Source: a virus
Length of the DNA stretch: 20,139 nt
Strand: one strand, 5' to 3'
IMG/VR virus record: IMGVR_UViG_3300009074_000054
Span: 1 to 20,139 of that record
Under the pieces are notes generated by a model, which saw nothing but the letters and a program-made list of their open reading frames with translations, did no database searches and was not told the DNA's origin. Below, piece after piece: positions 1-19,491 of the stretch; the first letter of the stretch is position 1, and the number at the start of each line of letters is the position of its first letter. The translations under genes and the position numbers were made by a program.

Positions 1-1779
1 CTCGGCAGAATTCAATTTAATCTTTCCTTTGAGAACATCGCCTAAGGTGTCTGGATTTATACGACCAAGTTTCTTTTCTAGTTTATCAAATGAACCTTCT
101 TCAATATCCTCAGACTCCTTTACAAGCTTGCTGATCTGTCCTTTTAATATCTTCTTAGCTGCATCTGCATGAGCCTTAGTTACTTTCGATTCTAAATCAA
201 GATATCTCATCTTCTTAATCAATGCGTCGGCATCCTTTCCTCCTTTGAGTCTTAGAGCCTTAAGAACCATCGCGACTGTTGCACTAGCTTCTTCAAGATT
301 GGTTGCTTCGTCAACTCCAATCATCAATGCGCTAATTGCGTCTTTAACATTTTTAAAGTATTCGACGCCAGATGACTTACCGCCATCAAACTTAATCTTG
401 CCTTTTTCGATAGAAAAATCAGTTACTGCACCTTGGCCAAAATCTGCTGTATTTCCTTTAACATCAGCACCAAGTTTTTTTGCAGTAGCAAGAACTTTCT
501 TCAGATCTGCGTTAGTTGCTTCTTCGATTTCAACAGATTCTTCGGTAAGAGCTTTAACTCCAAACTTAGGGAAATACTTATCGTTCTTCTTTTTTGCGAT
601 TGAAGCAGTATCCTTATCGTTCATCTTAGAGAATACTGCCTTAGCTTTCTTAAGATCACTTGAAGAAATCTTAGCAGCTTGATCTTTCTTAGCAAGTTCA
701 CCTGCGACTTTGATGCCATCTTTATCAGTCAACAACCGAAGAGCATGAACAATATCGCGATAAACAATAGCTTCTTCAAGAGATTCAAGCAACTTGAGCT
801 TCTTTAGTTCACTCTTTACAACACGATCTGGTGCTTCCATATCAGCTGGTGCATCGATTCCTATAAGAGTAGTAAGACCTTGTGTTAGATCCGCATTCTT
901 GATCTTACCAGACTCAATCGCTTTAACAATATTTTGTGTAACAGTTTTGCGCTGTTTCTGCTTTACAGCATCGCTCATGATCACGATCTTTTCAACCCAA
1001 GACTTCAAAGATTCTTCACCCTTTTTAATAGAGTACATGCCTTTATGAGTTTTAACCTTGATTGCTTCTTCAAGATCAGTAGCTTCAGCAATTCCTTCAA
1101 ACTCTGGTTGGCTATCAATATATCTGATGTAAGCTTCTTTAATTTCGGCTGTAGTTGAATCTAAATCGATGTTAGAGGAAGCAACGAAATTTTCGACTAC
1201 TTCCATATTATCCTGTTTGAGAGTAAGAGATACAATTTTTTCAAGTCTAAGAGTATCCAAATCCTTCTTAACCTTTACTTCTTCTTTGATCTCTTCTCCT
1301 TCAGGACGACGAGTACTCTTTTTTGGGTAAATGATCTTGAGAGGGTTATTTGTAATGAAGATTAGTTCATCATCCAAATCTAATCCAGCAGCAGTTGCTG
1401 CCTTTGTTGTTCCTAATAGTTTGTTTTTAACTCCAAGCTTAATCTCTCCTGGACGTACTGTCGATATAATCTGCTTTAGGTCGTGCTTCTTAATAAGCTT
1501 TGCTTGCTTATCCTTATCACCGTTAGTTCTTGTCCATGCTTGTTCGAGCTTCTTAAATGGAACTATTTTAGCTTCTTCGAGTGGATCGTGACCTTCTCTA
1601 ATTCGACGCTTAGACAATTCTCTCGTAATTGCTGTTACGACTGGTTTAGAAGCTGCTCTACTAACATCAGCAAAGATCCGCAATAGATCCTTTAGCTCTT
1701 TATCAGATAGCCGTGCATAATCTGCGGTGGATGCCTCAGCAATATGTTTCTCTACTATTTCTTGTTCTTTTATGTTCAT
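1..1779 (-). CDS. Putative internal head/scaffold protein with many prohead-protease sites (partial, 3' end outside window)
   Basis: The reading frame is open from the ATG at 1779 to the window edge, giving 593 codons without a stop, so the C-terminus is missing. The product is Lys/Glu/Ala-rich, largely helical in appearance, with no membrane segment. I recognise no enzyme domain. It carries at least ten (I/L)-x-E|(A/G) tripeptides, after residues 15, 62, 69, 215, 232, 238, 336, 420, 497 and 561. This is the cleavage pattern known for the T4 gp21 prohead protease. The N-terminus (MNIKEQEIVEKHIAEA) looks like a capsid targeting tag ending in IAE|A. Residues about 334-365 and 495-525 resemble each other (LEEA...ALRL...KD...L.KK), suggesting an internal repeat. 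A GGGAAAA sequence 5' of the ATG is a plausible ribosome binding site. An early-type and a late-type promoter both lie upstream. A scaffold/core or internal head protein is inferred, not proven. Confidence 0.8.
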   Translation of the reverse strand, partial: MNIKEQEIVEKHIAEASTADYARLSDKELKDLLRIFADVSRAASKPVVTAITRELSKRRIREGHDPLEEAKIVPFKKLEQAWTRTNGDKDKQAKLIKKHDLKQIISTVRPGEIKLGVKNKLLGTTKAATAAGLDLDDELIFITNNPLKIIYPKKSTRRPEGEEIKEEVKVKKDLDTLRLEKIVSLTLKQDNMEVVENFVASSNIDLDSTTAEIKEAYIRYIDSQPEFEGIAEATDLEEAIKVKTHKGMYSIKKGEESLKSWVEKIVIMSDAVKQKQRKTVTQNIVKAIESGKIKNADLTQGLTTLIGIDAPADMEAPDRVVKSELKKLKLLESLEEAIVYRDIVHALRLLTDKDGIKVAGELAKKDQAAKISSSDLKKAKAVFSKMNDKDTASIAKKKNDKYFPKFGVKALTEESVEIEEATNADLKKVLATAKKLGADVKGNTADFGQGAVTDFSIEKGKIKFDGGKSSGVEYFKNVKDAISALMIGVDEATNLEEASATVAMVLKALRLKGGKDADALIKKMRYLDLESKVTKAHADAAKKILKGQISKLVKESEDIEEGSFDKLEKKLGRINPDTLGDVLKGKIKLNSAE

Positions 1780-1812
1780 TTAAGTTTTCCCATGGTTAAT
1801 TGTCTATTCTTA

Positions 1813-1820
1813 TATTTATA
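1813..1820 (-). promoter_or_regulatory. T4-type late promoter box TATAAATA upstream of the partial head-protein gene
   Basis: TATAAATA on the minus strand, 33 bases before the ATG at 1779. It is identical to the core of the T4 late promoter recognised by the gp55 sigma factor. It leaves room for a short leader holding GGGAAAA. Position and exact match support it; no expression data are available. Confidence 0.6.
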
Positions 1821-1843
1821 ATATAGATACTTTACATTCGTAT

Positions 1844-1872
1844 ATTATACTATAAATTTGTTACTTTGTAAA
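1844..1872 (-). promoter_or_regulatory. Sigma70-type promoter TTTACA-N17-TATAAT upstream of the late box
   Basis: Minus strand -35 TTTACA (1867-1872) and perfect -10 TATAAT (1844-1849) with 17 bases between. The -35 box begins just past the stop codon of the upstream gene. It shares a 14-base exact stretch around the -10 (1842-1855) with the promoter at 16286-16299. It is followed by the late box at 1813-1820, so this gene seems to have tandem early and late promoters. Confidence 0.65.
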
Positions 1873-1874
1873 AT

Positions 1875-4055
1875 CTATTTACCAAACTCATGGCCGGCGA
1901 CTCTCTCCATTTGCTTGCTATATTCCTTAAAGCTCGGCTTTTCCTTATATAGCTTAATAGAAATTTCAGAGCGCTCTTTTCCCTTTATGCGCCATTTGTA
2001 ACCTTTTTCAGTGTGGTCTGGATCAGCGGTTTTGACTACTCGTCTTTTATAACCCTGTTCCCAAGTTTCTCCCTCATACTTACCTTCGCCTTCGTCAATC
2101 TTTTGCCCAGGAGTATTTTTTTTAAATATCTTTGTTGTTTCAGGAGTGCCGTAATCTAATGCTTCTTTCATTCCGCTATGTTGCGACCAAAGATCTTTAT
2201 CAGCAGTAGTTCGGGTTTTACCTCCAGTGGCAAAAGAATTGATTCTAGCAAATCCCCACTGGGATGGAGTAGTTCCAGGTCTGTGGCCAGTTTTCCAAGC
2301 TGCAACTCCACGATCAAATACCTTCTTAAGAATTGAATACGAAATACCTGTCGCTTTAGCCTTATTTTCGATACCAGTCTTATTTTCAGAGATTAGCTCT
2401 TCAGTAGATTCTCCGAGCTGGGCTGAAACCCACTTCTTAGCGATGTTATTCTTAGGAGCTTCTTTTGCAAATTTGGCCATTTGCTTGTATGCCGATGTTG
2501 TAGCCTTTGCGACGTTTGCTCCGCTTGAATTATCAACAATAACAAAGTTTTTAGAGAATAGCTGTTGGAATTTACCAAGATTGTTTTGAACATCCTTCCA
2601 CATCTTTGTAACGGTATCATCTGGAAGACTTCTCGCTCTCATCCGGTTACGCTCTAGAGCTGTATCAAGATCAGTATTAACAAAGATCATTGCTACATCA
2701 TAACCAATCGTTTTCATTAGATCAGCCTGCTTTTTAATCTTGGCATAGTCTTTACCAGTTCCATCAATTACCAAACCGAGTCTGCCGTTGATATATAGAT
2801 CCTGTTGCTTTGCTGTCAATTCCTTTGCTCTACCACGAATTTTTTGACCCTTTGGACTAAAGATATTTTCAGGTGATGGTTCAAGATCTGCTTTCTTTAG
2901 CATTACCTCAAACTTATCATCCGAATTAACAACCTTAAATCCAAGAGCAGTAAGAGCAGTCTTACCAACAGTGAATGATTTACCAGAACCTGGGCCACCT
3001 GCAAGGAATACTGCTTTGAAGATTGCTGGATCATCGACACCCTCTTCAATGCTTTCTTCACCAAACATATCTTTAAATTTCTTTGTATGTTTAGAAGTCT
3101 TTGTTTTGGCAGTAGCATCTCCTGGAGCTGGCTTATATGCGTCTGGATTATCATCATCCATAGCAGCTTGTTTTTTAAACTGCGATTGTCGTTTAGCTTT
3201 AGTTGACTTTGACAAACCTGCATGATACTTTGGATTTACAGTTTCTTCAAGGTATTCTTCAAGGTGATTAATAAAGTACTTTGTTCCAATAGAGCTAACA
3301 ACGTAGTTTGAATATCGTTCAGCGATAGTAAAGTTGTGGTTTGTCTTTTGGCACGTTACTCTATCGCCAGTATTAAAAATCTCTCCTGAAATATAGCGTT
3401 CACGCTTTTCAGATAGAGTTGGAAGTTGGATATGCTTACGAAAGTTAACCATTTCCTTTAAACCCATTCTCTTACGAATTAGATTAAAGAGCGACATATC
3501 TTCTCCGTATTCTTTTGGTAATCCCTTTGAAAAAGACTTAAAGTCACCATCGATTGCAGCTTGGCGCATCTTCGATGCAGACATTCCAGATACACCCTCA
3601 GCATCAGGATCACGATCACCCGCAGATACTACTTCAATTCCTCCATCAAAATCATACAGTCCGTGGGCTGCTTTAACTCCGTTGTACTTATTGAGAAGGC
3701 TGCTCATTTCCTTAACGCGATCAGAACCAACCACAAATTTCGCCTTAGTATAACCCTGAGAATACAGAGAGGCTGCTGCATGTAGTACCGAAATGCTTTT
3801 ATCATCAACAATGTTTCGGCCATGCTTAGGAAACATCTTACGCATTACCTTAATCTTTTCGCTGTACTGCAGAGGATTCTTCTTAGCGTCATTTGACTTA
3901 GAAGCGTATATCTTATAGTCATTACCAGTTGCGATAGATGCAACTTTAGCAAGAAGCTTTCCATGACCAACAGTAGGCGGATTGAAGCGGCCGAAAGTAA
4001 ATGTTACTTCGCGTGTCTTTTCTTCATTGAACTCTTTAAATCCTTTAACAATCAT
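1875..4055 (-). CDS. Multidomain head-tagged protein: cytidylyltransferase-like nucleotidyltransferase + P-loop kinase + DUF5824-like domain
   Basis: The product has 726 residues. Residues 14-200 form an HxGH-type nucleotidyltransferase: FGRFNPPTVGH at 21-31 holds the nucleotide-binding TVGH, and GMSASKMR at 157-164 matches the ISGTxxR-type second motif seen in archaeal NMN adenylyltransferases. Residues 200-340 form a basic linker. It opens with a second tag-like stretch (MVNFRKHIQ at 202-210, then LSE) and contains a conserved-looking KPAPGD segment. Residues 345-530 are a P-loop kinase of the zeta-toxin/polynucleotide-kinase type, with Walker A GGPGSGKS at 353-360. Residues 559-625 resemble DUF5824 (ISYSILKKVFDRGVAAWKTG). 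Possible prohead-protease sites fall in linkers: LEE at 269-271, IEE|G at 336-338, ISE at 555-557 and IDE|G at 653-655. The start MIVKGFKEF looks like a capsid targeting tag. The substrates are unknown. NMN, a lipid precursor or RNA ends are all possible. Confidence 0.85.
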   Translation of the reverse strand: MIVKGFKEFNEEKTREVTFTFGRFNPPTVGHGKLLAKVASIATGNDYKIYASKSNDAKKNPLQYSEKIKVMRKMFPKHGRNIVDDKSISVLHAAASLYSQGYTKAKFVVGSDRVKEMSSLLNKYNGVKAAHGLYDFDGGIEVVSAGDRDPDAEGVSGMSASKMRQAAIDGDFKSFSKGLPKEYGEDMSLFNLIRKRMGLKEMVNFRKHIQLPTLSEKRERYISGEIFNTGDRVTCQKTNHNFTIAERYSNYVVSSIGTKYFINHLEEYLEETVNPKYHAGLSKSTKAKRQSQFKKQAAMDDDNPDAYKPAPGDATAKTKTSKHTKKFKDMFGEESIEEGVDDPAIFKAVFLAGGPGSGKSFTVGKTALTALGFKVVNSDDKFEVMLKKADLEPSPENIFSPKGQKIRGRAKELTAKQQDLYINGRLGLVIDGTGKDYAKIKKQADLMKTIGYDVAMIFVNTDLDTALERNRMRARSLPDDTVTKMWKDVQNNLGKFQQLFSKNFVIVDNSSGANVAKATTSAYKQMAKFAKEAPKNNIAKKWVSAQLGESTEELISENKTGIENKAKATGISYSILKKVFDRGVAAWKTGHRPGTTPSQWGFARINSFATGGKTRTTADKDLWSQHSGMKEALDYGTPETTKIFKKNTPGQKIDEGEGKYEGETWEQGYKRRVVKTADPDHTEKGYKWRIKGKERSEISIKLYKEKPSFKEYSKQMERVAGHEFGK

Positions 4056-4056
4056 A

Positions 4057-4233
4057 CTAAATATCTTTTCTCTTTATTAACGGTGCTGAGCAATCATTGC
4101 TTTCAAGTTTTTTCCTATTAGCGTTGACTTTAGCAAGATAACCATCAGGATCTATGTCTGTGCCAGATTGCTGAGTATAATCTACCACTAGAAAGTCTTT
4201 AAAATTTAGTATTTTTTCTGGTAATTTATTCAT
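4057..4233 (-). CDS. Small tag-bearing protein, 58 aa, hypothetical
   Basis: A 58-codon reading frame from ATG 4233 to TAG 4057-4059 fills the gap between two larger genes. Its stop lies one base before the ATG of the 726-residue gene, so translation may be coupled. The N-terminus contains ILNFKDFLVVDY, resembling the F-K-x-F-(I/L) tag found on its neighbours. The rest (GTDIDPDGYLAKVNANRKKL) is unlike anything I recognise. A late-type box TATAAATA ends only 9 bases before the ATG, so a transcript from it would be nearly leaderless. The tight fit between neighbours and the shared tag make it more likely real than chance, but it is short. Confidence 0.55.
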   Translation of the reverse strand: MNKLPEKILNFKDFLVVDYTQQSGTDIDPDGYLAKVNANRKKLESNDCSAPLIKRKDI

Positions 4234-4242
4234 TGTAATATA

Positions 4243-4250
4243 TATTTATA
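4243..4250 (-). promoter_or_regulatory. T4-type late promoter box TATAAATA
   Basis: Exact TATAAATA on the minus strand in the 28-base gap upstream of the 58-aa ORF. An AGGAGAG sequence lies just 5' of it and would not be in the transcript, so it cannot act as a binding site for the small ORF if this promoter is used. It probably serves the small ORF and the 726-residue gene. Confidence 0.5.
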
Positions 4251-4261
4251 CATCTCTCCTA

Positions 4262-5152
4262 TTACGTTAGCTTATCTAGAGCTTCAGGAACAGGATATTT
4301 CTTCTTTAAGAGACCTTCTTTAGCCATCTTGTAGATATCTTTGCGATGTTTCTTGTGTGGAAAGGAGGATGATTGTACTGCCTTTAGAGCTTGCTCAAAG
4401 GTTAATATATCACTGGCTTTGTATGAGCCTCCAAATAGATATTTAATAATGGTGTCTGGATCATCGCTCAGTGTTTCTGATGATACTTTTTTAGCAGTCT
4501 TTGTGACTTTGCCAGTTTTCAGAGATTTTAATGATTGAGTTCCCTTTTGCAATCCTCCTGATAACGAGAACCAAAAACGATCCCACGTAATAGGCTGCTT
4601 ATCATTCGACATTTCTTTTACTTTCAATCCAGCGAATTTAGCGATACCATACAATAACTCATTTCGATATAATCCCTTTAGGCTTGATTCAAGATATGAA
4701 GGAGAATAATAAGACCAAGAAGCGAGCTTAACATTATCAACGAGCATGAAATCAAGTTGTACAGTTTCACCTTCTTGTTTACCATCTACATTTGTAATTG
4801 GATACCCAACCGAGACAATACCGATAGACCTTAGATCTCTAAATTTATATCCCTTTTTCTTTGTGATATTAATGATAAGGTCTATCATGTCACCAAATGT
4901 AGATACGTTCTTATGCTTAAGCAATTCTCGAGAAGAAAGAGCAATATCAATATCTCCTGAAACTGCTTTAGGAGCTTTCTTTCCAGTAGAACCTAGTATT
5001 GCAGTATCTTTTTCGCTAAGACCAAGAAGCTTTAAATAATCTTTAAATACAGATTTTACAGTGGCAATCGAGTTTTCTTGGTTGATACCAACAACTCCTT
5101 CGACAGCATTTCCGCCTTCATTGATTTGTATAAATTGTTTAAAGTTTATCAT
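4262..5152 (-). CDS. Pol-beta-superfamily nucleotidyltransferase with capsid-targeting-like N-terminus
   Basis: The product has 296 residues. LGSTGKKAPKAVSGDIDIAL (53-72) carries the G-S...D-x-D signature of the Pol-beta-like nucleotidyltransferase fold, with acidic residues D67 and D69. VQLDFMLVD (131-139) supplies the likely third acidic residue, D134. Family members add nucleotides to RNA, protein or small molecules; the substrate here is not evident. The N-terminus MINFKQFIQINEGG fits the tag pattern of this cluster, with INE|G as a candidate prohead-protease site at residues 10-12. The C-terminal 60 residues are basic, with FPHKKHRKDIYK. The start codon overlaps the stop of the upstream ligase-like gene by 4 bases (ATGA), so the two are translationally coupled. 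All catalytic residues appear present. Confidence 0.8.
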   Translation of the reverse strand: MINFKQFIQINEGGNAVEGVVGINQENSIATVKSVFKDYLKLLGLSEKDTAILGSTGKKAPKAVSGDIDIALSSRELLKHKNVSTFGDMIDLIINITKKKGYKFRDLRSIGIVSVGYPITNVDGKQEGETVQLDFMLVDNVKLASWSYYSPSYLESSLKGLYRNELLYGIAKFAGLKVKEMSNDKQPITWDRFWFSLSGGLQKGTQSLKSLKTGKVTKTAKKVSSETLSDDPDTIIKYLFGGSYKASDILTFEQALKAVQSSSFPHKKHRKDIYKMAKEGLLKKKYPVPEALDKLT

Positions 5153-6087
5153 TTCTTTTTGAATTTTATGTCTTTAAGTTTTGCTCTACGATCTTTGAAT
5201 CTAGCTGAAGTAGCCTTTAGTGTAGTGCCTGATTTCGTCTGAAGAACGATACCTTCGAAATCATCTCCAAACTTTCCAGCTCTTACATATGATAGTATTT
5301 TATTTGAAAGCTCTGTTTGGTATTTAGCAATCTCTTGTTTAAGTTTATCTTTGAGAGGTTTATCTATCTTTTTTCGTGACACCAATGCTGCATCGATATT
5401 ATCATACTTAGAGAGAATATTCTTTTTAACCTTATCAATGCTTAACGTGATATCTATATCAGAATCAATCTTTAAATTTGCACTGGTGTACTTACGCTCC
5501 TTAGTCGAAATCTTATATAAAGCTTTGAATATCTCTTCCTTATTTTCGATAGGGTTTCCGTCGAAGTCTTGAACATCGAATGGCACAAATGTCCATTCTT
5601 CCCCTAAGTTCTTCTTGTCGTAATCCATAAAAATGAATTGAAGTTTACTGTTCTTCGTTTCAGTTGCAAGTGGCACATACAACACCTCTCCAGTAATAAC
5701 GATACCATTTCCAGTATTGTATTTAGAAAGTACACTTTGTAACTTCTTATCGTTTTGTACTTCCTTTAGTATATTATCAAAGTTAACACTAATGCTATTG
5801 TCATAACCCTTAGAGGTTGCAAAGGTTGAGAAGTCGCCAGGCTTAAAATACCGCTGAGACATTTTAGTATTAATAAATGTCTTGCCTTTAGAATCTTGAC
5901 CAATCGTAAGAGAGCTACCATCGATCTTCTCAGTAATAGATATATCCTTTAATTTAAGAACGCCTTTATATTCAGATTCCAACTCCTTAATAAGAGACAA
6001 AAAATCAATTGGCTTCATTGTCTCAATATGAGTAATGAAGGTTGGCGATATCTTAGTTTCAACTAGGAATGTCTTAAATGAAATCAT
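5149..6087 (-). CDS. DNA/RNA ligase-type covalent nucleotidyltransferase with capsid-targeting-like N-terminus
   Basis: The product has 312 residues. TEKIDGSSL (52-60) is motif I (K-x-D-G) of the ATP-dependent ligase/capping enzyme superfamily, with K54 as the expected adenylated lysine. TGEVLY in the middle resembles motif III. FEGIVLQT (277-284) is motif IV and TLKATSARF (289-297) is a motif V-like stretch. The length suits a minimal ligase core plus insert, and no OB-fold extension is obvious. An RNA ligase of the Rnl2-like group is the best guess; a DNA ligase is less likely because of the small size. The protein begins MISFKTFLVETK, with LVE as a candidate cleavage site. It starts within the stop codon of the 98-aa gene (TAATG) and ends in an ATGA overlap with the Pol-beta-type gene, forming one operon. 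Confidence 0.8.
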   Translation of the reverse strand: MISFKTFLVETKISPTFITHIETMKPIDFLSLIKELESEYKGVLKLKDISITEKIDGSSLTIGQDSKGKTFINTKMSQRYFKPGDFSTFATSKGYDNSISVNFDNILKEVQNDKKLQSVLSKYNTGNGIVITGEVLYVPLATETKNSKLQFIFMDYDKKNLGEEWTFVPFDVQDFDGNPIENKEEIFKALYKISTKERKYTSANLKIDSDIDITLSIDKVKKNILSKYDNIDAALVSRKKIDKPLKDKLKQEIAKYQTELSNKILSYVRAGKFGDDFEGIVLQTKSGTTLKATSARFKDRRAKLKDIKFKKK

Positions 6088-6383
6088 TATGGAGCTAGTT
6101 TAATTTCAACTTGTTTTGGTTTTACCTTCAACTCTTTCTTTAGAAATTTAGTCAATTGTTTAACGGCGCTTTTATATGTTGACATTGCTTTTGAAACGAA
6201 TGTATCTTGTTGCATTCCAATAATTCCACCAGAATTTAAAGATGCTTTATAGTCAAATGCCCATGTTCCTTCACCCTTAGGTTGTTGACCTCGATGTGAG
6301 AATTGCCAAGGTGTTAAATCGATTGCATAACCTTCTTTAAGTTCTTGCTCCTTTTCGATTACATGTTCTTTAAATGTTTTCAT
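6087..6383 (-). CDS. Small head-tagged protein, 98 aa, hypothetical
   Basis: The N-terminus MKTFKEHVIEKEQELKEG closely resembles, from memory, the capsid targeting sequence of T4 internal protein III (MKTYQEFIAEA). LKE|G at residues 15-17 is a candidate prohead-protease site. Cleavage there would leave a mature protein of about 80 residues. It would start YAIDLTPWQFSHRG and have a basic, Lys-rich C-terminal half, as expected for a DNA-associated internal head protein. No domain is recognised. The start is well supported by AGGA 8 bases upstream. It lies first in a coupled operon with the ligase-like and Pol-beta-type genes, directly behind a late-type box. Confidence 0.75.
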   Translation of the reverse strand: MKTFKEHVIEKEQELKEGYAIDLTPWQFSHRGQQPKGEGTWAFDYKASLNSGGIIGMQQDTFVSKAMSTYKSAVKQLTKFLKKELKVKPKQVEIKLAP

Positions 6384-6394
6384 ATTAATATTCC

Positions 6395-6402
6395 TATTTA
6401 TA
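6395..6402 (-). promoter_or_regulatory. T4-type late promoter box TATAAATA
   Basis: Exact TATAAATA on the minus strand, 11 bases before the ATG at 6383. It overlaps the AGGA that serves as ribosome binding site (TATAAATAGGA). A start at the usual late distance would give a leader of only about 5 bases without AGGA, so some translation may depend on upstream read-through. Confidence 0.55.
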
Positions 6403-7797
6403 TTAATAAATTTTAATAAAGAATCCGTTATCTACGCTTATCTTCTTAGCGCCATTAATCATCTTATTCATGATGTTAGATAGGTCTTTTTCGTTTGTTA
6501 TAAAGAAGTGCATAATCTTTAGACCCTGTATTTTCATGCATAAATTCTGTGCAACTTCATAATCATTCTGAGCTTTTGCAACAAGATCATCAAACTCTTC
6601 TTTGGTCAATTGGTTTTGATCTTTAACTTTTTTATGTTTAATAACTGTTTTGTACCACCCGTATATTTCCTTACGTCTAGCTTCATTAAATGTACCGAAT
6701 ATTTCTGGCGTTCTACCAAAATATGCAATACTGCTAATTCTTTCATCATCATATTCGGCCATAATACGATCCAAAATAGCAGTACTAATTTTACCTAATC
6801 GACCTCCTGACGGTGTTCCATCTGAGGTAATTTCAGTTTGTGCAGTACCATATCCATGCGGAAAACCACGTACCTGTAGGCTAATTTGTTTTAATGTGTC
6901 AGTATTCTTAAATGTAAATAGGCCAATTTCTTTACCTTCTTCGCTTAAGTTACAGTTAAACTTAGCGATCTCAATGTTATATGCTGCTATCTTAATTTTA
7001 CCAGGCTCATTCGCATAATCTATCGATGGATTATTATTGACTAATTGCTTAAGAGAGATCGGATAAAGTGTCTTCTTTTTGTAATAAGAGTATAGCTTAT
7101 TGTTAAACATCGGAATTAATCCATCTTTAATTTCATAAGTATCTACCAAATTCTGTAGCTCTTTTGAAATGGCAGACTTTTTCCTCTTACTGACTATGAA
7201 GATGTCTGCTGGATTCCATGAATCTTTAGCAATCTTTGCCTTCTTAGTAAATGCAGTAATAGCTTTAGCAAAATCTGATTTGTCTGTTGCATCATGCAGT
7301 ATATCAAAACCGCTTAAAGAACCAACAATCTTTTTAACCACAGAGCGCGTGTTTTTAAAGGTTGGTAACCATGCGATGTATGCATCTGGGTTATCGATGA
7401 ATAGCTGTTGACCAGTATCTTTAGGTGTCTTAATGTCTTTTCTCAAGGATGCTACAGTTGCTAACTCACCAGCATCAGCCAACTTCTTCCCGAGAGCATT
7501 CCTTGAACCATTGCCCATACCTGAAAACAACGACTTATCAATATCAATGAATCTAAATTCTCTTTTGCCATCAGTAAACACAGCAGCATAGGCTTGTTCT
7601 GATTTATTTGGATAGAGAATCTTCGTATATTTAGAAACGTCGGTCTGAACCTTTTCTAAAGCCACGATATCTTTAGTCTTTTTAAACTTATAAAATTTGC
7701 CATCTTTCGCCTTAATCTTATCACCAGCATTAATCTTAGCGACTATCGCAGTAATATATTTTGGTTTGGAGAGGTCTGCTTTACTAAATAGTGCCAT
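6403..7797 (-). CDS. Hypothetical phage protein with a PD-(D/E)xK-like motif
   Basis: The product has 464 residues and no signal peptide or membrane segment. WNPADIFIVSK (194-204) resembles the P-x-D-h-h-h-x-K core of PD-(D/E)xK nucleases. A glutamate in AGELATVASL (E111) could be the preceding acidic residue of such a fold. The C-terminal half (SGGRLGKISTAILDRIM, EIFGTFNEARRKEIYGWYK) is not recognised. Unlike its neighbours it does not start with the F-K-x-F tag (MALFSKADLSKPKY), so head packaging is less clear. The start lies one base after the stop of the 106-aa gene, and no Shine-Dalgarno sequence is visible, so translation is probably coupled. A nuclease is a tentative guess; a structural role is equally possible. 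Confidence 0.75.
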   Translation of the reverse strand: MALFSKADLSKPKYITAIVAKINAGDKIKAKDGKFYKFKKTKDIVALEKVQTDVSKYTKILYPNKSEQAYAAVFTDGKREFRFIDIDKSLFSGMGNGSRNALGKKLADAGELATVASLRKDIKTPKDTGQQLFIDNPDAYIAWLPTFKNTRSVVKKIVGSLSGFDILHDATDKSDFAKAITAFTKKAKIAKDSWNPADIFIVSKRKKSAISKELQNLVDTYEIKDGLIPMFNNKLYSYYKKKTLYPISLKQLVNNNPSIDYANEPGKIKIAAYNIEIAKFNCNLSEEGKEIGLFTFKNTDTLKQISLQVRGFPHGYGTAQTEITSDGTPSGGRLGKISTAILDRIMAEYDDERISSIAYFGRTPEIFGTFNEARRKEIYGWYKTVIKHKKVKDQNQLTKEEFDDLVAKAQNDYEVAQNLCMKIQGLKIMHFFITNEKDLSNIMNKMINGAKKISVDNGFFIKIY

Positions 7798-7798
7798 A

Positions 7799-8119
7799 TT
7801 ATGTTAAGTCAGATACTGTTTTGCCCTTTTCCCAGAACTTACACGACCAGTAGCGCGCCTTCCATTTTGGGCCCAAATCTGTATCGCACTGATGACGAGC
7901 TCTAAAGCTTTTACGTCTTTTAGGATCATCTCGCTTGATTTCCATATTAGGATCTCCAAAACCGAGTTTAATAGTATTACCCTTTTCGTTCTTTACATAC
8001 ACGTAGAACTTCTTCTTACCGTCATTGGCACGAAACGGCTTATTAAGAGTAACCTTCTTACCCTGATATTCTGTCTCTTCAAACAAGAGAGAGTCTTTAA
8101 ATTCTAGCATAATTCCCAT
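7799..8119 (-). CDS. Conserved small phage protein (GDPNMEIKRDDP...FRARH family), probably head-associated
   Basis: The 106-residue product has a strongly patterned core: NKPFRANDGKKKFYVYVKN, GFGDPNMEIKRDDPKRRKSF, RARHQCDTD and YWSCKFWEKG. I recognise this arrangement from many phage genomes, where it is a small uncharacterised family near head or structural genes. C78 and C92 could bind metal. The N-terminus from the second methionine (MLEFKDSLLFEET) fits the capsid-targeting-like pattern, with LFE as a candidate cleavage site. The true start may therefore be 8110 rather than 8119. Neither ATG has a good Shine-Dalgarno sequence. A late-type box precedes it by 33 bases. Confidence 0.8.
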   Translation of the reverse strand: MGIMLEFKDSLLFEETEYQGKKVTLNKPFRANDGKKKFYVYVKNEKGNTIKLGFGDPNMEIKRDDPKRRKSFRARHQCDTDLGPKWKARYWSCKFWEKGKTVSDLT

Positions 8120-8152: not shown

Positions 8153-8160
8153 TATTTATA
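8153..8160 (-). promoter_or_regulatory. T4-type late promoter box TATAAATA
   Basis: Exact TATAAATA on the minus strand in the 53-base gap between the protease gene and the 106-aa gene, 33 bases before the ATG at 8119. It marks the change from replication genes to the presumed late block. Confidence 0.65.
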
Positions 8161-8172
8161 ACATAACACTTT

Positions 8173-8646
8173 TTAGTATTGCGCCCATTTACAGTTTTTC
8201 CAGCGACTTTGTTCAAACCACCGTATAAATAAGCCCCTTTCTCTCCCATGCGCCTCTATCTCCCATGGAAGGTCGTAATAATTTACGACGTTACATTTCA
8301 CTATGGATCCATGCCATTTGCATAAGTTAACCTCTCTAGAAAGGTCCTTTAGTTCTCCCTTTGCGAATTGCTTTACATGCACCATTTCATGAGCAACGGT
8401 TTCTAGCATTGCTTGAATAGGCTGAGAAGAGTCAACTCTCATAATGAATTCACGAGGACGGTACGAGCTATCTTCCCATATACAATCTCCTGAGAGCTCT
8501 TCTTTACCTCTTAGATCACGTATGAGTTTAATATCTACCTCTACCTTATTTACTAAGCGTGGTGCTAAGTGGTTAAGAGAGAAGTTGGCAATGTCTTCTA
8601 CCATTTCTCTCTTAACCTTACCTGAACCTGTAACCGATATAAACAT
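8173..8646 (-). CDS. SprT-like zinc metalloprotease domain protein
   Basis: The product has 157 residues. TVAHEMVHVKQ (83-93) holds the zinc-binding HExxH motif, H86-E87-x-x-H90, with E87 as catalytic base. LPWEIEAHGRE (126-136) downstream offers the third ligand, E131 or H133, as in SprT/gluzincin-type proteins. Known SprT-family members include SPRTN, which digests DNA-protein crosslinks. The C-terminus has Cys and aromatic residues (RWKNCKWAQY). The start codon overlaps the helicase stop codon (TAATG), so it is coupled to the replicative helicase, which suggests a role at the fork. A lysis or head-maturation role is less likely from this position. Confidence 0.8.
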   Translation of the reverse strand: MFISVTGSGKVKREMVEDIANFSLNHLAPRLVNKVEVDIKLIRDLRGKEELSGDCIWEDSSYRPREFIMRVDSSQPIQAMLETVAHEMVHVKQFAKGELKDLSREVNLCKWHGSIVKCNVVNYYDLPWEIEAHGRERGLFIRWFEQSRWKNCKWAQY

Positions 8647-10007
8647 TAAATCTTGAATGCTGAGAAGTCAGTTTTTGCAGCAACTGGAGCTGGAGACAAA
8701 TCATCACTTGATAGTGTCTGTGCCGAGTCCTCAATATCGTATAATCGCATTCTAGATCGATCAATGCCAACGCAAAATCGCTTGTTTTGTGTAGGATCAT
8801 TATAACGATTCTTTAGTTGCTTAATCATCAATTGGTTAGCACTCTCGAGTTGCTCAGTAGATATAAGAGCAAGCATTAAATCAGAAGTTGCTGGCAGACC
8901 AAATGATTCTGATGTGTCAGTAATTTCAACATCTGAATTGCCAAATCCTGAACGAGTGACCTGAGTTGCTGACCAGATCGGCACATTGTACTCAACAGCA
9001 AGGCCACGAATCTCTTCAGCAATTGCCTTAATAAGCGAGTATGTATTGATCGAAGCGCCTAAGCCCTTTACTCGAGAGCTTGAACAGATATTCAAATAAT
9101 CGATATAGATCACGTCTGGACTAAACTTCTTTTTCATCTTAAGCTCACTTAGAAGTGAACGAAAGTGGCCAACATGAGCGACAGCGGTTGGGTATTCTTT
9201 AATAATCAGTTTGCCGTGTGTCTTCTTATTGGCTAAATGTGCCTTATTGATAAAGGCATCTTTACTTAGATCAGTAATCTTTGCGATATCAACATCGAAT
9301 AGATTAGCATCAATGCGTTCTGCGATCTTTTCTTCTGCCATTTCAAGAGTAATGTACAATACATTTTTACCTTGCGCGAGGGCATCTGCAGCAAAATGGC
9401 ACATAGCCAAACTTTTCCCAACCCCAGTGCCAGCCAAAATGATATTAAGAGATTTTCGTGGAACACCACCCTTAGTGATCGTATTAAGGAGTTCAATATT
9501 GAATGGAATTTTATCTTCTTTTTGATGATAATATTCATAACGTTCTTCAACGTTTTCAAAGTAATCGTGGCCGACATTCGTATCAAATGTGACCGACAAG
9601 GCCTTTGTCAGGATATCGGGAATTGCTCCCTCGGCCTTGTCGGTATTACCATCGATGATCGAGATCGACTCCATCAATGCAAGATATACAGCTCTATCTT
9701 TACACCACTTCTCTGTCGATTCGATTAGCCACTCTGTTTCAACTGCATTATCATCATGTAATGATTTGATTAGAGCTAGCGTTTCATTTGCTATAGGACG
9801 ATTGCTATATTCTGATTCTTGGAATTCAACCTCAAGAATGGCTGGAGTTGGCAACTTATTGTATTTAGTTACAAACTGCAAGAATATATCATAGACTGCT
9901 TTATGTTGATCTTCAAAGTACTCCTTCTTAATATGCGGAAGAGCCTTTCTGAGAAAATCCTCATTATTAGTCAATGATTTCAGTATTATCGTCTGTATGT
10001 CTTGCAT
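8646..10007 (-). CDS. 41: Replicative DnaB-family helicase (T4 gp41-like)
   Basis: The product has 453 residues, close to T4 gp41. The N-terminal domain (1-150) resembles gp41, including the AIPDILTKALS...DTNVGHDYF segment. The RecA-type ATPase core follows: Walker A AGTGVGKS at 192-199, LYITLEMAEE at 217-226 and Walker B DVIYIDYLN at 298-306. A helicase arginine and sensor region follows (WSATQV, ESFGLPATSDLML, QLKNRYNDP). It unwinds DNA ahead of the polymerase and interacts with the primase. It overlaps the gp40-like gene by 41 bases and the protease gene by 1 base. A 12-bp perfect inverted repeat lies inside it at 9592-9644. The start at 10007 has AGGA about 10 bases upstream. Confidence 0.95.
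   Translation of the reverse strand: MQDIQTIILKSLTNNEDFLRKALPHIKKEYFEDQHKAVYDIFLQFVTKYNKLPTPAILEVEFQESEYSNRPIANETLALIKSLHDDNAVETEWLIESTEKWCKDRAVYLALMESISIIDGNTDKAEGAIPDILTKALSVTFDTNVGHDYFENVEERYEYYHQKEDKIPFNIELLNTITKGGVPRKSLNIILAGTGVGKSLAMCHFAADALAQGKNVLYITLEMAEEKIAERIDANLFDVDIAKITDLSKDAFINKAHLANKKTHGKLIIKEYPTAVAHVGHFRSLLSELKMKKKFSPDVIYIDYLNICSSSRVKGLGASINTYSLIKAIAEEIRGLAVEYNVPIWSATQVTRSGFGNSDVEITDTSESFGLPATSDLMLALISTEQLESANQLMIKQLKNRYNDPTQNKRFCVGIDRSRMRLYDIEDSAQTLSSDDLSPAPVAAKTDFSAFKI
9592..9644. repeat. 12-bp perfect inverted repeat with nested hairpin inside the helicase gene
   Basis: ACCGACAAGGCC at 9592-9603 is matched exactly by GGCCTTGTCGGT at 9633-9644, separated by 29 bases. The spacer itself holds GGGA-ATTGC-TCCC (9618-9630). 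The stem is GC-richer than the surroundings. It lies over the codons for the conserved AIPDILTKALS stretch. It could fold in the helicase mRNA or act as a protein site; chance is possible. Confidence 0.6.
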
Positions 10008-10284
10008 TACCTATTTGTCCTGTCTGATCTTCCAGTATTTCTGTTAATATATTTCCGATATAATCTCGGAATTCGGTGCTCTCTTCGAGCTCGTGCTTTG
10101 AATATGGTTCAGGTACTTCTTCAATATGATAATTGAATTTTAGACGAGCTAAGTCATTTTCAATATCTTCTTCAATAGTAACTGAACCATACGTATATAT
10201 TACATTATTATAAGGACCTTGTACAATCTTTAATGAATAAAGTTCAGAGTCCTTCTTTTCTACAAAGATGTATTCTTTACTCAT
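9967..10284 (-). CDS. 40: gp40-like protein (head vertex assembly chaperone by position and pattern)
   Basis: A longer frame extends upstream, but the start at 10284 (MSKEYIFVEKKD) is preferred. It overlaps the recombinase stop by only 8 bases and removes an unlikely basic extension read from uvsX in another frame. That gives 105 residues, close to T4 gp40 (114). The product is acidic with alternating beta-type strands (SLKIVQGPYNNVIYTYGSV) and ends in a helix (EFRDYIGNILTEILED). It sits between uvsX and the helicase exactly as gene 40 does in T4. In T4, gp40 assists assembly of the portal vertex initiator. The assignment rests on position and general pattern more than strict identity. Confidence 0.75.
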   Translation of the reverse strand: MSKEYIFVEKKDSELYSLKIVQGPYNNVIYTYGSVTIEEDIENDLARLKFNYHIEEVPEPYSKHELEESTEFRDYIGNILTEILEDQTGQIGNARHTDDNTEIID

Positions 10285-11341
10285 CTGCGATTGACGGTTC
10301 AGTTTCAAGCCTAAGTTCTTCGAGCATAGAAACATGAGCAACCTTATATCGTTTCTCGATGCACTTCTCAAAATCTGTCTTATCGAATATTGCTGTCCAG
10401 AATTCTTCAGTCATCGTTTGTGCAGCACGAAGATTTCCGCTCAACTCTTCTTGTGTATTAGGATTCATTGCCATATACCAACCATTCTTAGGCTTAACAA
10501 CGTGACCAGTTTCAAGAGCAAGATCTAATAAACCTGACCACTTTTCGATACCTCCGTCCCAACTTACACTAATTGGGATCTTAGACTTCTCCTTTACAAA
10601 GCGAGACTTCTCGATATTAATAATGAAGTGGTAACCTGAGATTTCAGTACCAGCCTTTTCTTGCCGACGGCCAATGATCCATACATCATTCGCTGAGTAC
10701 ATGACACCAGTTCCACCAGACACAACTGCCTTTGAGAACATCTCTTGTGTTTGATACGTGTGGTTGACTGCAAGAAGAGGAATATCCTTCAGTGTCAAGA
10801 ATGGTGTAATCATGCGGAATAGACCTTTAAGAGCCTTAGCTCGAGTCATATCAGCAACTGACTTCATATTCTCTGCATCTTCGATTTCTTTCTTCGATGC
10901 AATGTTACCAATAGAATCAATCACTACGATCACCTTATCTTTACGATCGATTTCAGTAAGCTGATGAACCAAATCAAATTTAAGTTCTTCAATATTGGTG
11001 ACAGGTGTATGTAACACACGAGTTGTATCGATACCGAAACTCTCAAAGTATGATTGTGGTGAACCAAACTCCGAATCATAGAACATGAGAACTGCATCCT
11101 TATGCTTCTTCATATAAGCACCTGCCATTAAAAGGGCAAACGATGTTTTGAAGTGCTTACTTGGACCAGCGAGGACTGTTAGACCTGAAGAGATACCACC
11201 TTGAGTGGAACCAGAGAGTGCGACGTTAATCATCGGCACTGATGTTTTAGTCATTTCCTTTTCGGAAAAGAACTTTGATTCAGAGAGAATCTCTGCGCCT
11301 GATGTGCGACTTGATTTTTTTAGTTTTTCTAGTAGTGACAT
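10277..11341 (-). CDS. uvsX: UvsX RecA-like recombinase
   Basis: The product has 354 residues, slightly shorter than T4 UvsX at its C-terminus. Shared segments are SKFFSEKEM...PMINVALSG, Walker A GPSKHFKT at 59-66, LMFYDSEFG, HTPV, Walker B VIVVIDSIGN at 137-146, ASKKEIEDA, DMTRAKALK, AVNHTYQTQEMFSK and GGTGVMYSA. It forms filaments on single-stranded DNA and drives strand exchange for recombination-dependent replication. The acidic C-terminal tail of T4 UvsX is largely missing here. It has its own promoter, TTTACA-N17-TATAAT, with a 23-base gap to the ATG but no visible Shine-Dalgarno sequence. Its end overlaps the gp40-like gene. Confidence 0.96.
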   Translation of the reverse strand: MSLLEKLKKSSRTSGAEILSESKFFSEKEMTKTSVPMINVALSGSTQGGISSGLTVLAGPSKHFKTSFALLMAGAYMKKHKDAVLMFYDSEFGSPQSYFESFGIDTTRVLHTPVTNIEELKFDLVHQLTEIDRKDKVIVVIDSIGNIASKKEIEDAENMKSVADMTRAKALKGLFRMITPFLTLKDIPLLAVNHTYQTQEMFSKAVVSGGTGVMYSANDVWIIGRRQEKAGTEISGYHFIINIEKSRFVKEKSKIPISVSWDGGIEKWSGLLDLALETGHVVKPKNGWYMAMNPNTQEELSGNLRAAQTMTEEFWTAIFDKTDFEKCIEKRYKVAHVSMLEELRLETEPSIADE

Positions 11342-13347: not shown

Positions 13348-14325
13348 CTACTTTTTTAATGAGAAGGTCTTCGGATAGACCCAATCATATGGGATTTTCT
13401 TAGTAGTTCCCTTTATACCATGCCGAATAAACAGATGCTTACACCACATACACGCCTTATCTTCGATATTGATATTATATTGGCGCTTCATTGGATTATC
13501 TGGATGAGCTGCGACCTCATTGAATTGGCGAACAAGCTCCTTTGCTGGATCATTGATCGGTTTATATGCTCCAGTCGATTCATCTAATTCAAACTTTGTT
13601 TTACCGAATAGGTTCTTACCTCCAAAGAGTTGCCATAATCCATAGAATGACAATGTGCCTGGAGTAACCCATGATTCTGGATCTACCAAATCAGGACGAG
13701 CCATTGCGATATGGCGAGAGAGATTCTTAAACGGATACATCACATTACGAAATCCAAACTTCTCTTTAGTGTGTCGTTCTAACTTAGATGCTAACTCCAT
13801 CATTGTAAGTCTCCTATCAGATTCTAGAATCGAATAGCAATCTTCTGCAATTTGTTGAGGAACTTCACACAACCAATCTCGTACGATAGTTCCCTTTGGA
13901 TAGTAGATCTGAAAAAGATCAGAGCGAGCATGCCTTTCAGTTTCAAACCGAGTCTTCATAGCTTCGATACCATGATCGCGCAATGCTCTAAACGTTAGCC
14001 AATGCTCGTTACTGAATGACCATACAATAGTGTGATGCAAAAGCGTCTTGAGATCTTTCTCGTCCTTCATCTCATCTACATACGGCATTTCATCCCAGTG
14101 TAATCGATGAGAGAACTGTTGTGGATTTGCTTTAAGTAGAGGTTCTTCTCTTACATCGTATGCTCTACAGAACTCAAAGAACTTTTGAAATCGTTCTTCG
14201 AGAGAGTAGTTTTCTAATAGACAATTAGTCGGCTTGCCTTTCTTTAAGATTGGTTCAGACGAATTTGGATAGATAATCTTATTAGTGCTGCTATCATCGA
14301 TGAAATCTTCTATAGTGTTTTGCAT
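13348..14325 (-). CDS. Putative base-hypermodification protein (amino acid:DNA transferase / pyrophosphorylase-like)
   Basis: The product has 325 residues, is soluble, and is rich in Trp, Arg and His. Notable segments are HTIVWSFSNEHWLTFRALRD, YPFKNLSRHIAMARPDLVDP (210-229) and SFYGLWQLFGGKNLFG, then DKACMWCKHLF (about 293-303) near the C-terminus, where C296 and C299 form a CxxC that could bind metal. The pairing with the next upstream gene and with a PLP enzyme recalls the alpha-glutamyl/putrescinyl-thymine pyrophosphorylase and amino acid:DNA transferase families of phages with hypermodified thymine. I cannot confirm the family by eye. The start overlaps the upstream gene stop by 16 bases. 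The N-terminal 30 residues (DSSTNKIIYPNSSEP) look disordered. Confidence 0.75.
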   Translation of the reverse strand: MQNTIEDFIDDSSTNKIIYPNSSEPILKKGKPTNCLLENYSLEERFQKFFEFCRAYDVREEPLLKANPQQFSHRLHWDEMPYVDEMKDEKDLKTLLHHTIVWSFSNEHWLTFRALRDHGIEAMKTRFETERHARSDLFQIYYPKGTIVRDWLCEVPQQIAEDCYSILESDRRLTMMELASKLERHTKEKFGFRNVMYPFKNLSRHIAMARPDLVDPESWVTPGTLSFYGLWQLFGGKNLFGKTKFELDESTGAYKPINDPAKELVRQFNEVAAHPDNPMKRQYNINIEDKACMWCKHLFIRHGIKGTTKKIPYDWVYPKTFSLKK

Positions 14326-15503
14326 TTTTCTTTGTATTGTTCGACTGTCATTCCTGCTTGTTTTAGAATAGTATCATCTGAAGGGTGATTCTTAATACCA
14401 TTGAAAGTTTTGATTAAACCAAAATCTAACATAGCTTTTTGTCTTCCATATGGATGATCTTTAATGCTCGATGAATTCCATAATGTATCCATATTTACAT
14501 CTGCATAATCGGCTCCAGGACGGACATAGTTTTCAATCCAACGAATGAAGTCGCATGCAACATCTTCTGCGTTATACGGCACTGATCCAGTATCTTCATA
14601 GATTTTCATCATCACGGCATCTAAGAACTCTTCTGACTTCTTACCCTTACCATTAGGCGTGTCTGCCAAATAACCAATGCACTCAACAGCATTTGTTCCA
14701 TAATAGAACATTGACTCAAGATTGACAAATTGCGGAAACCAATCAGCAACGTCTGCAATGATTGCCGCATATTGAAAACGGTATACTCTTAGGCCATTCG
14801 TTTGGTTCCATTTAAACATCCATTCACCAATTTCTCGGAGATTGCGTTTACCGCCTTTCTCTAAGAAAGATGCTAAGTCACGAGCCAAACGTGGTGCATA
14901 CTCGCATAGGAAGTAATCTCCTCCACGCTTGTATACATAATCACCTTCGATACCAAACAATGGAGCCGATTCTACTTGAGGCTTTGGTGGTTTTGGAAAT
15001 GCTGGAAACTGATAACCAACTGAAGTGTAAAATGTCTTTTTAGTAGACTTCACTTGTTCACACATTTCTTCGATTGTATCAGATTGCCATAGATCAAACA
15101 AAAGAGTGTTATGATAGCCGCTTGGTTTCGTTGCATAGTTAATAGCTGAACCACATACACGATGGAGAATGAAGAGATAGAGCCATTCAGAAAGTCCGAA
15201 TGTGTCTCTCTTATTACTCCAATTCGCTGCTACTTCTTTTCGTTGATGTGTATAAAGACCAGCTTCCATTCTTGACCAGTATGGATGATCTTCTGACCAA
15301 CCATAGAAGCAATCATTCACGATCTGACTGAAGCCAGCGAACTTCCTTTCAACAACATCATAGAGCTCAATGTTCTCCATAAGAGGATCTCCAAGCTGAG
15401 AATCCTTATGCGGTATATGACCTAAGTTTGATTTCTCTTGTTGGTCTTTAGCTAAATGAAAGTACCGAATGAACTCATCATAATATTTTGTTGTTTTAAC
15501 CAT
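14310..15503 (-). CDS. Putative amino acid:DNA transferase-like base-hypermodification protein
   Basis: The product has 397 residues. Conserved-looking segments are LYLFILHRVCGSAINYATKP, GYHNTLLFDLW, TSVGYQFPAFPKPPKP, GGDYFLCEYAPRLARDLASF, RNLREIGEWMFKWNQTNGLR, YRFQYAAIIADVADWFPQFV and FYYGTNAVECIGYL. From memory this resembles proteins annotated as amino acid:DNA transferase or alpha-glutamyl/putrescinyl-thymine pyrophosphorylase clade 2. Such enzymes transfer an amino acid or amine to activated 5-hydroxymethyl pyrimidine in DNA. The dense Gly, Trp, Tyr and Arg motifs suggest an enzyme. It starts 3 bases after the dCMP deaminase stop and overlaps the next gene by 16 bases. The function is inferred with moderate confidence; the gene itself is clear. 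Confidence 0.8.
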   Translation of the reverse strand: MVKTTKYYDEFIRYFHLAKDQQEKSNLGHIPHKDSQLGDPLMENIELYDVVERKFAGFSQIVNDCFYGWSEDHPYWSRMEAGLYTHQRKEVAANWSNKRDTFGLSEWLYLFILHRVCGSAINYATKPSGYHNTLLFDLWQSDTIEEMCEQVKSTKKTFYTSVGYQFPAFPKPPKPQVESAPLFGIEGDYVYKRGGDYFLCEYAPRLARDLASFLEKGGKRNLREIGEWMFKWNQTNGLRVYRFQYAAIIADVADWFPQFVNLESMFYYGTNAVECIGYLADTPNGKGKKSEEFLDAVMMKIYEDTGSVPYNAEDVACDFIRWIENYVRPGADYADVNMDTLWNSSSIKDHPYGRQKAMLDFGLIKTFNGIKNHPSDDTILKQAGMTVEQYKEKCKTL

Positions 15504-19083: not shown

Positions 19084-19491
19084 CTAAGCTAGATCTCCAT
19101 GATTGCCGCTGTGGTCAGGTGCAAGCCATCCAGCTGGCTTCACCAAATCTGGTAACCCTAAAGGATTATCTCTACCCTCTTTAATACCAACTTCCTTTGA
19201 CATGTTTGCCTTATGCACTTCGTCCCAAGCTCTGTATGGATCTACACCAAGAGCATCAAGTGTGCCAATTGCCACAACACATAGGTCAATCAATCCATCA
19301 ACAACTTCTTCAGAATCAAAAGACTTACCAGATTCTGCAGCTGTTTCAGTTTCTCCCAGTTCCTCGTGGAGGAAGTCTAATCTAAAACGTAAGAATGTTC
19401 GTAGCATTACACTATCAAAATTCTTAACGGCATCTCGCACACCAAATTTAGTATGCATTTCATTTATATCTTTACACCAGTCTTTACTCAT
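19084..19491 (-). CDS. MazG-like nucleotide pyrophosphohydrolase
   Basis: The 135-residue all-alpha product has FLHEELGETETA (40-51) with the E-E-x-x-E metal-binding motif (E43, E44, E47). EEVVDGLIDLCVVAIGTLDA (61-80) holds the second D-x-x-x-D pair (D65, D69). WDEVHKANMSK and VKPAGWLAPDH at the C-terminus are typical of phage MazG-like proteins. Members cleave NTPs or dNTPs to the monophosphate and pyrophosphate. Here it could supply dUMP or dCMP and remove normal dNTPs, as T4 gp56 does. A promoter sits 7 bases before the ATG, so the mRNA may be leaderless. Confidence 0.88.
   Translation of the reverse strand: MSKDWCKDINEMHTKFGVRDAVKNFDSVMLRTFLRFRLDFLHEELGETETAAESGKSFDSEEVVDGLIDLCVVAIGTLDALGVDPYRAWDEVHKANMSKEVGIKEGRDNPLGLPDLVKPAGWLAPDHSGNHGDLA

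Follow-up and report, generated by a model that had tools for sequence, protein, structure and literature searches.

The cluster at positions 1-8119 of a 20,139-base virus fragment (IMG/VR record IMGVR_UViG_3300009074_000054; this whole stretch is the window) probably encodes the late-expressed cargo of a T4-like, Kyanoviridae-like marine phage. Several of its genes open with a short tag resembling the capsid targeting sequence (CTS) of T4 internal proteins, and two of its products are predicted polyproteins. We propose, with good confidence, that the cluster represents a head-cargo system of the T4 type, extended to enzymes and modular polyproteins. At the level of sequence, tag and junction conservation, module shuffling and late promoter elements are established, and they support the idea of a head-packaged, injected enzyme set put forward in a sequence-only reading of this DNA.

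Every gene of the window lies on the minus strand. The pattern F-x-x-[FYH]-[LIV]-x-E, or a close variant, opens the following genes (a slash marks a predicted cleavage point here and below):

1875-4055, minus strand: P2, a tagged NMNAT-like cytidylyltransferase followed by a KYHAGLSKST module, a Zeta/AAA_33-type kinase, DUF5824 and a GETWE module (Pfam, PHROG, AlphaFold2)
4020-4055, minus strand: N-terminal tag of P2, MIVKGFKEFNEE, with F6 invariant in 60 aligned homologues
4262-5152, minus strand: P4, putative nucleotidyltransferase by motif reading; tag MINFKQFIQINE/G at 5114-5152
5149-6087, minus strand: P5, RNA-ligase-like (EKIDGSS, EGIVL; Pfam RNA_ligase 5.7e-8); tag MISFKTFLVE at 6058-6087
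6087-6383, minus strand: P6, YAID-PWQFSH domain; tag MKTFKEHVIEKEQELKE/G at 6333-6383
7799-8119, minus strand: P8, EYQGK domain; tag MLEFKDSLLFEE at 8075-8119

In the T4 record, ipII and ipIII read MKTYQEFIAEA, and ipI starts MKTFKEF with a later TITE/A. In the T4 IPIII tag, residues 4 and 7 are important to targeting, 8 and 10 to processing (PMC9026906), and we scored N-termini on this layout (aromatic at 4, aromatic at 7, [LIV] at 8, E at 10). P5 and P6 (MKTFKEHVIE) match all four positions, a score reached by about 0.1% of internal stretches. Three of four are matched by P4 and, shifted by two, by P2, against a background of 2.8%; two untagged replication-side open reading frames (ORFs; 14310-15503 and 19084-19491) reach this score by chance. 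The start of P8, (MGI)MLEFKDSLLFEE, is a weaker match. Our first regular expression picked out 4 of 22 window genes, with 0.44 expected. The suggested likeness to the T4 internal-protein CTS is thus borne out by this comparison. The residue after the tag's E gives a cleavage-type motif, judged by sequence, of E/G in P4, LKE/G in P6, E/T in P5 and E/K in P2; because this residue is K in P2, the P2 tag may target without being cut.

The tag also proved to be conserved in homologues, as a genuine signal should be under the earlier proposal. Scanning IMG/VR with a cytidylyltransferase alignment yielded 80 loci, and the tag is present in 71 of the 72 homologues that could be read, the sole failure reading ND for NE. 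In a 65-row alignment, 64 rows have F as the first aromatic, 63 have Y, F or H at +3, and 55 have E at +6. In the flanks of the 80 loci, 129 further same-strand genes fit the tag pattern, compared with 3 in a reversed decoy and 3 on the opposite strand; the 129 include a few cytidylyltransferases whose core motif is a variant. These tagged neighbours fall into 27 families or singletons, including DUF6267, small basic proteins, and HAD-like and Zeta-like enzymes. Four proteins of Methylophilales phage Melnitz match all four CTS positions, two of them heading the syntenic cluster.

Annotation can hide such tags. The C48C1 cytidyltransferase (CDS0089, L033:23514) is annotated from an internal ATG, and its tag, VIKNFSQYLLEEE, lies upstream and lacks an ATG start; no ATG opens the tag in L052, L072, L075, L085, L099 or L125 either. 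DUF6267, the commonest tagged neighbour (L046-L125), has a KWDGAPA motif that resembles ligase motif I and may be the counterpart of P5. S-SCSM1 ORF93 (L019:16627-16836), a 69-residue virion protein, has a tag-like C-terminal end, KKRTFKEFLEYIE, and a related domain in L120 carries its tag-like stretch at the N-terminus instead (MKSFQEL).

Tagged products have been found in virions of relatives. Published mass spectrometry of purified virions detected the cytidylyltransferase in S-SM1 (PMC3037559), S-SZBM1 (PMC9146016), S-SCSM1 (PMC9602691) and S-CREM2 (PMC10665884), and S-CBWM1 is cited as a further case (PMC9602691). In the genomes, the four detected copies start MKKFSAFLNE/A, MRFRQFIIE/A, MKSFLQFLKE/A and MKNFSSFLTE/A, so that each tag ends in E/A; the expectation that a tagged product would occur in virions therefore holds in four relatives. 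In S-SCSM1, each of the syntenic ORFs 89-93 bears a virion-protein annotation (PMC9602691), and further neighbours were detected in S-SZBM1 (136, 139; PMC9146016) and S-CREM2 (155, 156, 160; PMC10665884). In the portions available, the authors leave open true cargo versus carry-over and name no targeting sequence. A literature search, with subscription papers outside its reach, returned no paper tying capsid targeting to these phages. We consider it very likely that the cytidylyltransferase family is packaged in virions.

The enzymes that bear the tag can be assigned in part. Pfam identifies in P2 a cytidylyltransferase (4.9e-5), an AAA_33 kinase (5.8e-10) and DUF5824 (1.6e-18). An AlphaFold2 model of P2 residues 1-300 (pLDDT 87) has as its top PDB matches nicotinamide mononucleotide (NMN) and nicotinic acid mononucleotide (NaMN) adenylyltransferases (E 6.6e-6). 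The family keeps an invariant FGR..PP..GH (compare GRxNPPTxGH) and the model fold matches NMNAT/NadD/PPAT; motif and modelled fold together place the P2 domain in the NMN/NaMN adenylyltransferase superfamily. In P4 we read GSTGKK..SGDIDIAL as a putative nucleotidyltransferase motif, and Pfam support for this assignment was not found. The statement that the tag sits on nucleotidyltransferases and a ligase-like enzyme accordingly stands by Pfam for P2 and P5 and lacks such support for the second nucleotidyltransferase, P4. Among named phages, P4 has relatives only in the Prevotella Lak phages (540 kb), at 25-27% identity; P5 matched none of the named phages searched, just near relatives being known, and sequence searches of PDB with P4 and P5 matched nothing.

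P1 and P2 are predicted polyproteins, with modules joined by [LIV]xE/[AGS] sites that are permuted, duplicated or freed among relatives:

1-1779, minus strand: P1, the N-terminal 593 residues of a modular polyprotein predicted from its site excess, cut by the window edge
1732-1743, minus strand: first predicted cleavage site of P1, HIAE/A, conserved in relatives
3240-3251, minus strand: predicted P2 site LEE/T before the KYHAGLSKST module, roughly placed; a separate tagged version occurs in L074 (MKTFKEFLKENSGYYRGLSKST)
3039-3050, minus strand: predicted P2 site IEE/G before the kinase domain, with a site at 15/15 kinase junctions
2088-2099, minus strand: predicted P2 site IDE/G before the GETWE module, with a site at 22/24 GETWE junctions

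P1 begins MNIKEQEIVEKHIAE, which has a conserved [IL]xE/A site and no aromatic tag. Its full length is 880 residues in L030:152-2794, identical (100%) over the 593 residues in the window. Within these, 13 [LIVM]xE[AGST] sites compare with 3.6 in shuffles (p<0.001), and the rest of the window's proteins have about as many as chance would give. The first site reads HIAEA, FISEA, YLDEA, TISEA, YLSEA or HLNEA in relatives, only [IL], E and A being constant. In a relative 73% identical at the N-terminus, the pieces between P1 sites match modules end to end in a changed order; some P1-type modules there are duplicated, and some stand in a separate gene starting with the tag MFTFLQYLKE/A. Twelve loci hold further chains, giving 93 cut pieces with a median of 72 residues. 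When chains were compared uncut by BLAST, internal matches began (49%) or ended (57%) within 6 residues of a site, versus 21-22% for random positions. Over the 80 loci, same-strand ORFs contain 761 sites where 459 are expected, and the opposite strand 18 where 20 are expected. Searches of named phages gave no match to the full polyprotein, and no peptidase domain was found among the family matches of P1 and P2. The AlphaFold2 model of P1 is of low confidence (pLDDT 52), with dips at three linkers, and is left uninterpreted.

Several domains have two settings, in one place following an N-terminal tag and in another lying within a larger protein. GETWE is the clearest, being a separate tagged gene in L090 (MITFKDYITE/GEGKYKGETWEDGYKRRVV) versus a module of P2 in the window (IDE/GEGKYEGETWEQGYKRRVV). 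The kinase has stand-alone versions in HTVC008M (gp129, MIPFILKE/GLYDPGIFK) and L111 (MLSFNEHIAEVEE/GVNDPAIFK). The P6 domain is internal behind IHE/G or LDE/A in L036 and L043/L044, with a site in 7/7 copies, and the EYQGK domain has one in 22/23 copies in T4-like contexts. For the GETWE, kinase, EYQGK and YAID domains together, 66 of the 69 copies from T4-like contexts have the junction site, versus 0 of 308 stretches taken within the domains, a large contrast even though these stretches are not independent of each other.

The EYQGK junction also goes along with the presence of the S77 (gp21-type) prohead protease. In six unrelated marine phages the EYQGK protein has an untagged start (MATYKGK, MAKYQGR and similar) and S77 is encoded in none of the six complete genomes. 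In C48C1, Melnitz, HTVC008M and Flavobacterium phage immuto the domain sits behind a tag or site-like junction, the weakest being PMMES in Melnitz, and S77 is present in all four complete genomes. The exact probability of this split, 4/4 against 0/6, is 1 in 210 by hand arithmetic. Melnitz, HTVC008M, S-SZBM1, C48C1, immuto and one tagged contig encode S77. We consider processing of the polyproteins by this protease probable on the sequence evidence.

Late expression is indicated by TATAAATA, of which the window has four minus-strand copies, each just upstream of a cluster gene (4/8 cluster genes versus 0/15 others):

1813-1820, minus strand: TATAAATA, T4-type late promoter element for P1, its position nearly unchanged in each of the six distinct relatives read
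8153-8160, minus strand: TATAAATA, late promoter element for P8, kept by each of the three distinct relatives read
6395-6402, minus strand: TATAAATA, doubtful promoter 19 nt before P6, absent from that place in L039
4243-4250, minus strand: TATAAATA, doubtful promoter 17 nt before a 58-residue ORF, moved in L006 and L039 and absent in L042

The last two are unconvincing because they lie too near the start codon. The late promoters claimed for the cluster are thus upheld for P1 and P8 and doubtful before P6 and the 58-residue ORF, the other cluster genes having no TATAAATA. HTVC008M and Melnitz have the element ahead of many structural genes and some cluster genes. Across the 80 loci, tagged and untagged ORFs showed no contrast in TATAAATA (14% versus 13%), possibly as a result of late expression across the entire neighbourhood.

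We propose that the N-terminal CTS on each tagged enzyme would pull the product into the prohead core, where the gp21-type (S77) protease would then cut after [IL]xE. The P1 and P2 chains, targeted or co-packaged, would release several small proteins inside the head, and recombination at shared linkers would shuffle, duplicate and free modules. The cargo (the NMNAT-like transferase, a Zeta/PNK-type kinase, the RNA-ligase-like enzyme, the putative nucleotidyltransferase and small modules) would exit together with the DNA and be active in the new host from the outset. Targeting, S77 cleavage, module release, ejection with the DNA and function are steps that we infer; injection is plausible, and we lean towards it. 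Our guess, drawn from established enzyme families, is that a cargo of NMNAT, kinase and ligase serves early nucleotide, nicotinamide adenine dinucleotide (NAD) or nucleic-acid repair, or acts against NAD-depleting or RNA-cutting host defences.

Several observations weigh against this proposal. The residue after E in cytidylyltransferase tags is often K, E, N or T, HTVC008M tags are weak, and the window contig, a fragment, does not show the phage's S77 protease. Detection in virions is limited to the cytidylyltransferase and its syntenic neighbours, in relatives, and the authors warn of carry-over in cesium chloride preparations (PMC9602691). A genome-wide Fisher test in S-SCSM1, where tags are few, found no association between tag and virion detection (1/48 virion proteins tagged, p=0.6); the tag is therefore not the sole route into the virion.

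Linker DNA bears on whether the chains are cut. CTT encodes Leu in 44 of 46 LEEA linkers, compared with about 41% of Leu codons overall, and a 21-residue stretch, made up of linker and the end of a module, recurs between genes. The linkers probably have a second role in recombination, since their DNA varies less than would be expected from codon usage. It is rather unlikely, in our judgement, that they are mere recombination seams or flexible linkers in chains that are never cut, a view favoured by the codon uniformity and the reused stretch. The first P1 site varies save for [IL], E and A, so uniform linker DNA does not exclude cleavage; the same junction also stands behind N-terminal tags, and the EYQGK junction is missing in phages that lack S77. 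As a side observation, LEEA linker DNA of L030/L034-L045 is near-uniform (CTTGAAGAAGC[AT]) beyond codon bias, as if kept by recombination or gene conversion.

P1 and its kin might instead be prohead core or scaffold proteins (gp22/gp67/gp68-like), cut to peptides that leave the head, and S-SZBM1_139, beside the cytidylyltransferase, is indeed rich in alanine and lysine. We hold this to be unlikely: HTVC008M and cyanophages have a separate scaffold gene beside the protease and capsid genes, ORFs 89-93 of S-SCSM1 stay in mature virions, and the modules, of about 72 residues, are mostly mutually unrelated and in some cases separately tagged genes. That the tag targets another part of the virion, such as the tail, or is an assembly signal unrelated to the T4 CTS would agree with whole-virion mass spectrometry, which merges head and tail; the shared T4 CTS spacing (4, 7, 8, 10), the E/A end and the presence of S77 in the same phages make it quite improbable. 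Short motifs do recur by chance, as the two untagged window ORFs at 3/4 illustrate, but chance or low-complexity likeness of phage N-termini deserves almost no credence given 129 tagged genes versus 3 decoys and the invariant F6, and we regard it as already refuted.

Beyond the tagged genes, the window contains:

6403-7797, minus strand: P7, an untagged cluster member (PHROG 1462)
4057-4233, minus strand: the 58-residue ORF, not tagged (inner NFKDFLVV), starting MNKLP/MDKLP in all relatives and having no E/A site
8646-10007, minus strand: DnaB-type helicase (Pfam/PHROG)
10277-11341, minus strand: UvsX (Pfam/PHROG)

Distant P7 relatives in L109 and L096 carry the tag (E 3e-5 and 5e-4). ILNFKDFLVV, also listed as a tag, is rejected; it is internal to MNKLPEKILNFKDFLVVDYTQQ, the product of the 58-residue ORF. 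Of the seven examples of the N-terminal pattern in the sequence-only reading, those of P2, P4, P5, P6 and, weakly, P8 survive, ILNFKDFLVV drops out, and P1 retains a site in place of an aromatic tag.

From the right-hand end, the window runs by Pfam and PHROG through nucleotide metabolism, UvsX and the helicase to the cluster; we read the right-hand end gene, by position and sequence, as a putative DNA polymerase. The order polymerase, uvsX, gp41 and cytidylyltransferase cluster is common to Pelagibacter phage HTVC008M and cyanophages S-SCSM1, S-SZBM1 and S-SM1, and Melnitz keeps uvsX, gp41 and cluster together (gene identities partly by synteny). The S-CREM2 cytidylyltransferase sits after gp55, unlike the copies that follow pol/uvsX/gp41 in S-SM1, S-SZBM1 and S-SCSM1. 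At the DNA level no close relative of the window was found among the named phages searched. Between 11404 and 17586 lie a pyridoxal phosphate-dependent enzyme (weak Pfam match), deoxycytidine monophosphate deaminase, a thymidylate synthase homologue and two unassigned proteins (13348-15503), perhaps a thymidine-modification set.

What is new here is the cargo range and the polyprotein form of the proposed T4-type head-cargo system. The cluster resembles T4 IPI/IPII/IPIII in tag layout (ipI MKTFKEF, window P6 MKTFKEH), an E/A-type end, S77 in relatives and, for some of its genes, late promoter elements. It differs in that enzymes and many unrelated small domains bear the tag and that multi-module polyproteins occur. 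The cyanophage virion cytidylyltransferases (S-SM1, S-CBWM1, S-SZBM1, S-SCSM1, S-CREM2) are homologous virion enzymes, with shared synteny in S-SM1, S-SZBM1 and S-SCSM1, whereas in the window the enzyme forms one protein with kinase, DUF5824 and GETWE modules. Prohead protease likewise strips propeptides from the ejected head proteins of SPN3US and phiKZ; those propeptides mostly exceed 100 residues, in contrast to tags of 10-17 residues and internal repeat sites here. Polyvalent proteins (Iyer et al. 2017, PMC5512222) are also multidomain and predicted to be packaged and injected, and some have their own peptidase domain, whereas here prohead-protease-type sites join the modules and no peptidase was found.

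We are inclined to think that T4-like marine phages keep a recombining, beads-on-a-string library of small head-delivered proteins, whose chains the prohead protease would split within the capsid into numerous products. The linker would be both protease site and recombination seam, so that swaps between phages preserve packaging and processing. If this is true, a readable N-terminal code would show what proteins are carried in the heads of abundant ocean phages and would account for the recurring cytidylyltransferase in cyanophage virions. It would allow function-blind lists of candidate injected proteins, for anti-defence and for NAD or nucleic-acid repair, to be drawn from metagenomes, and a virion protease would convert shuffled polyproteins into multi-protein payloads.

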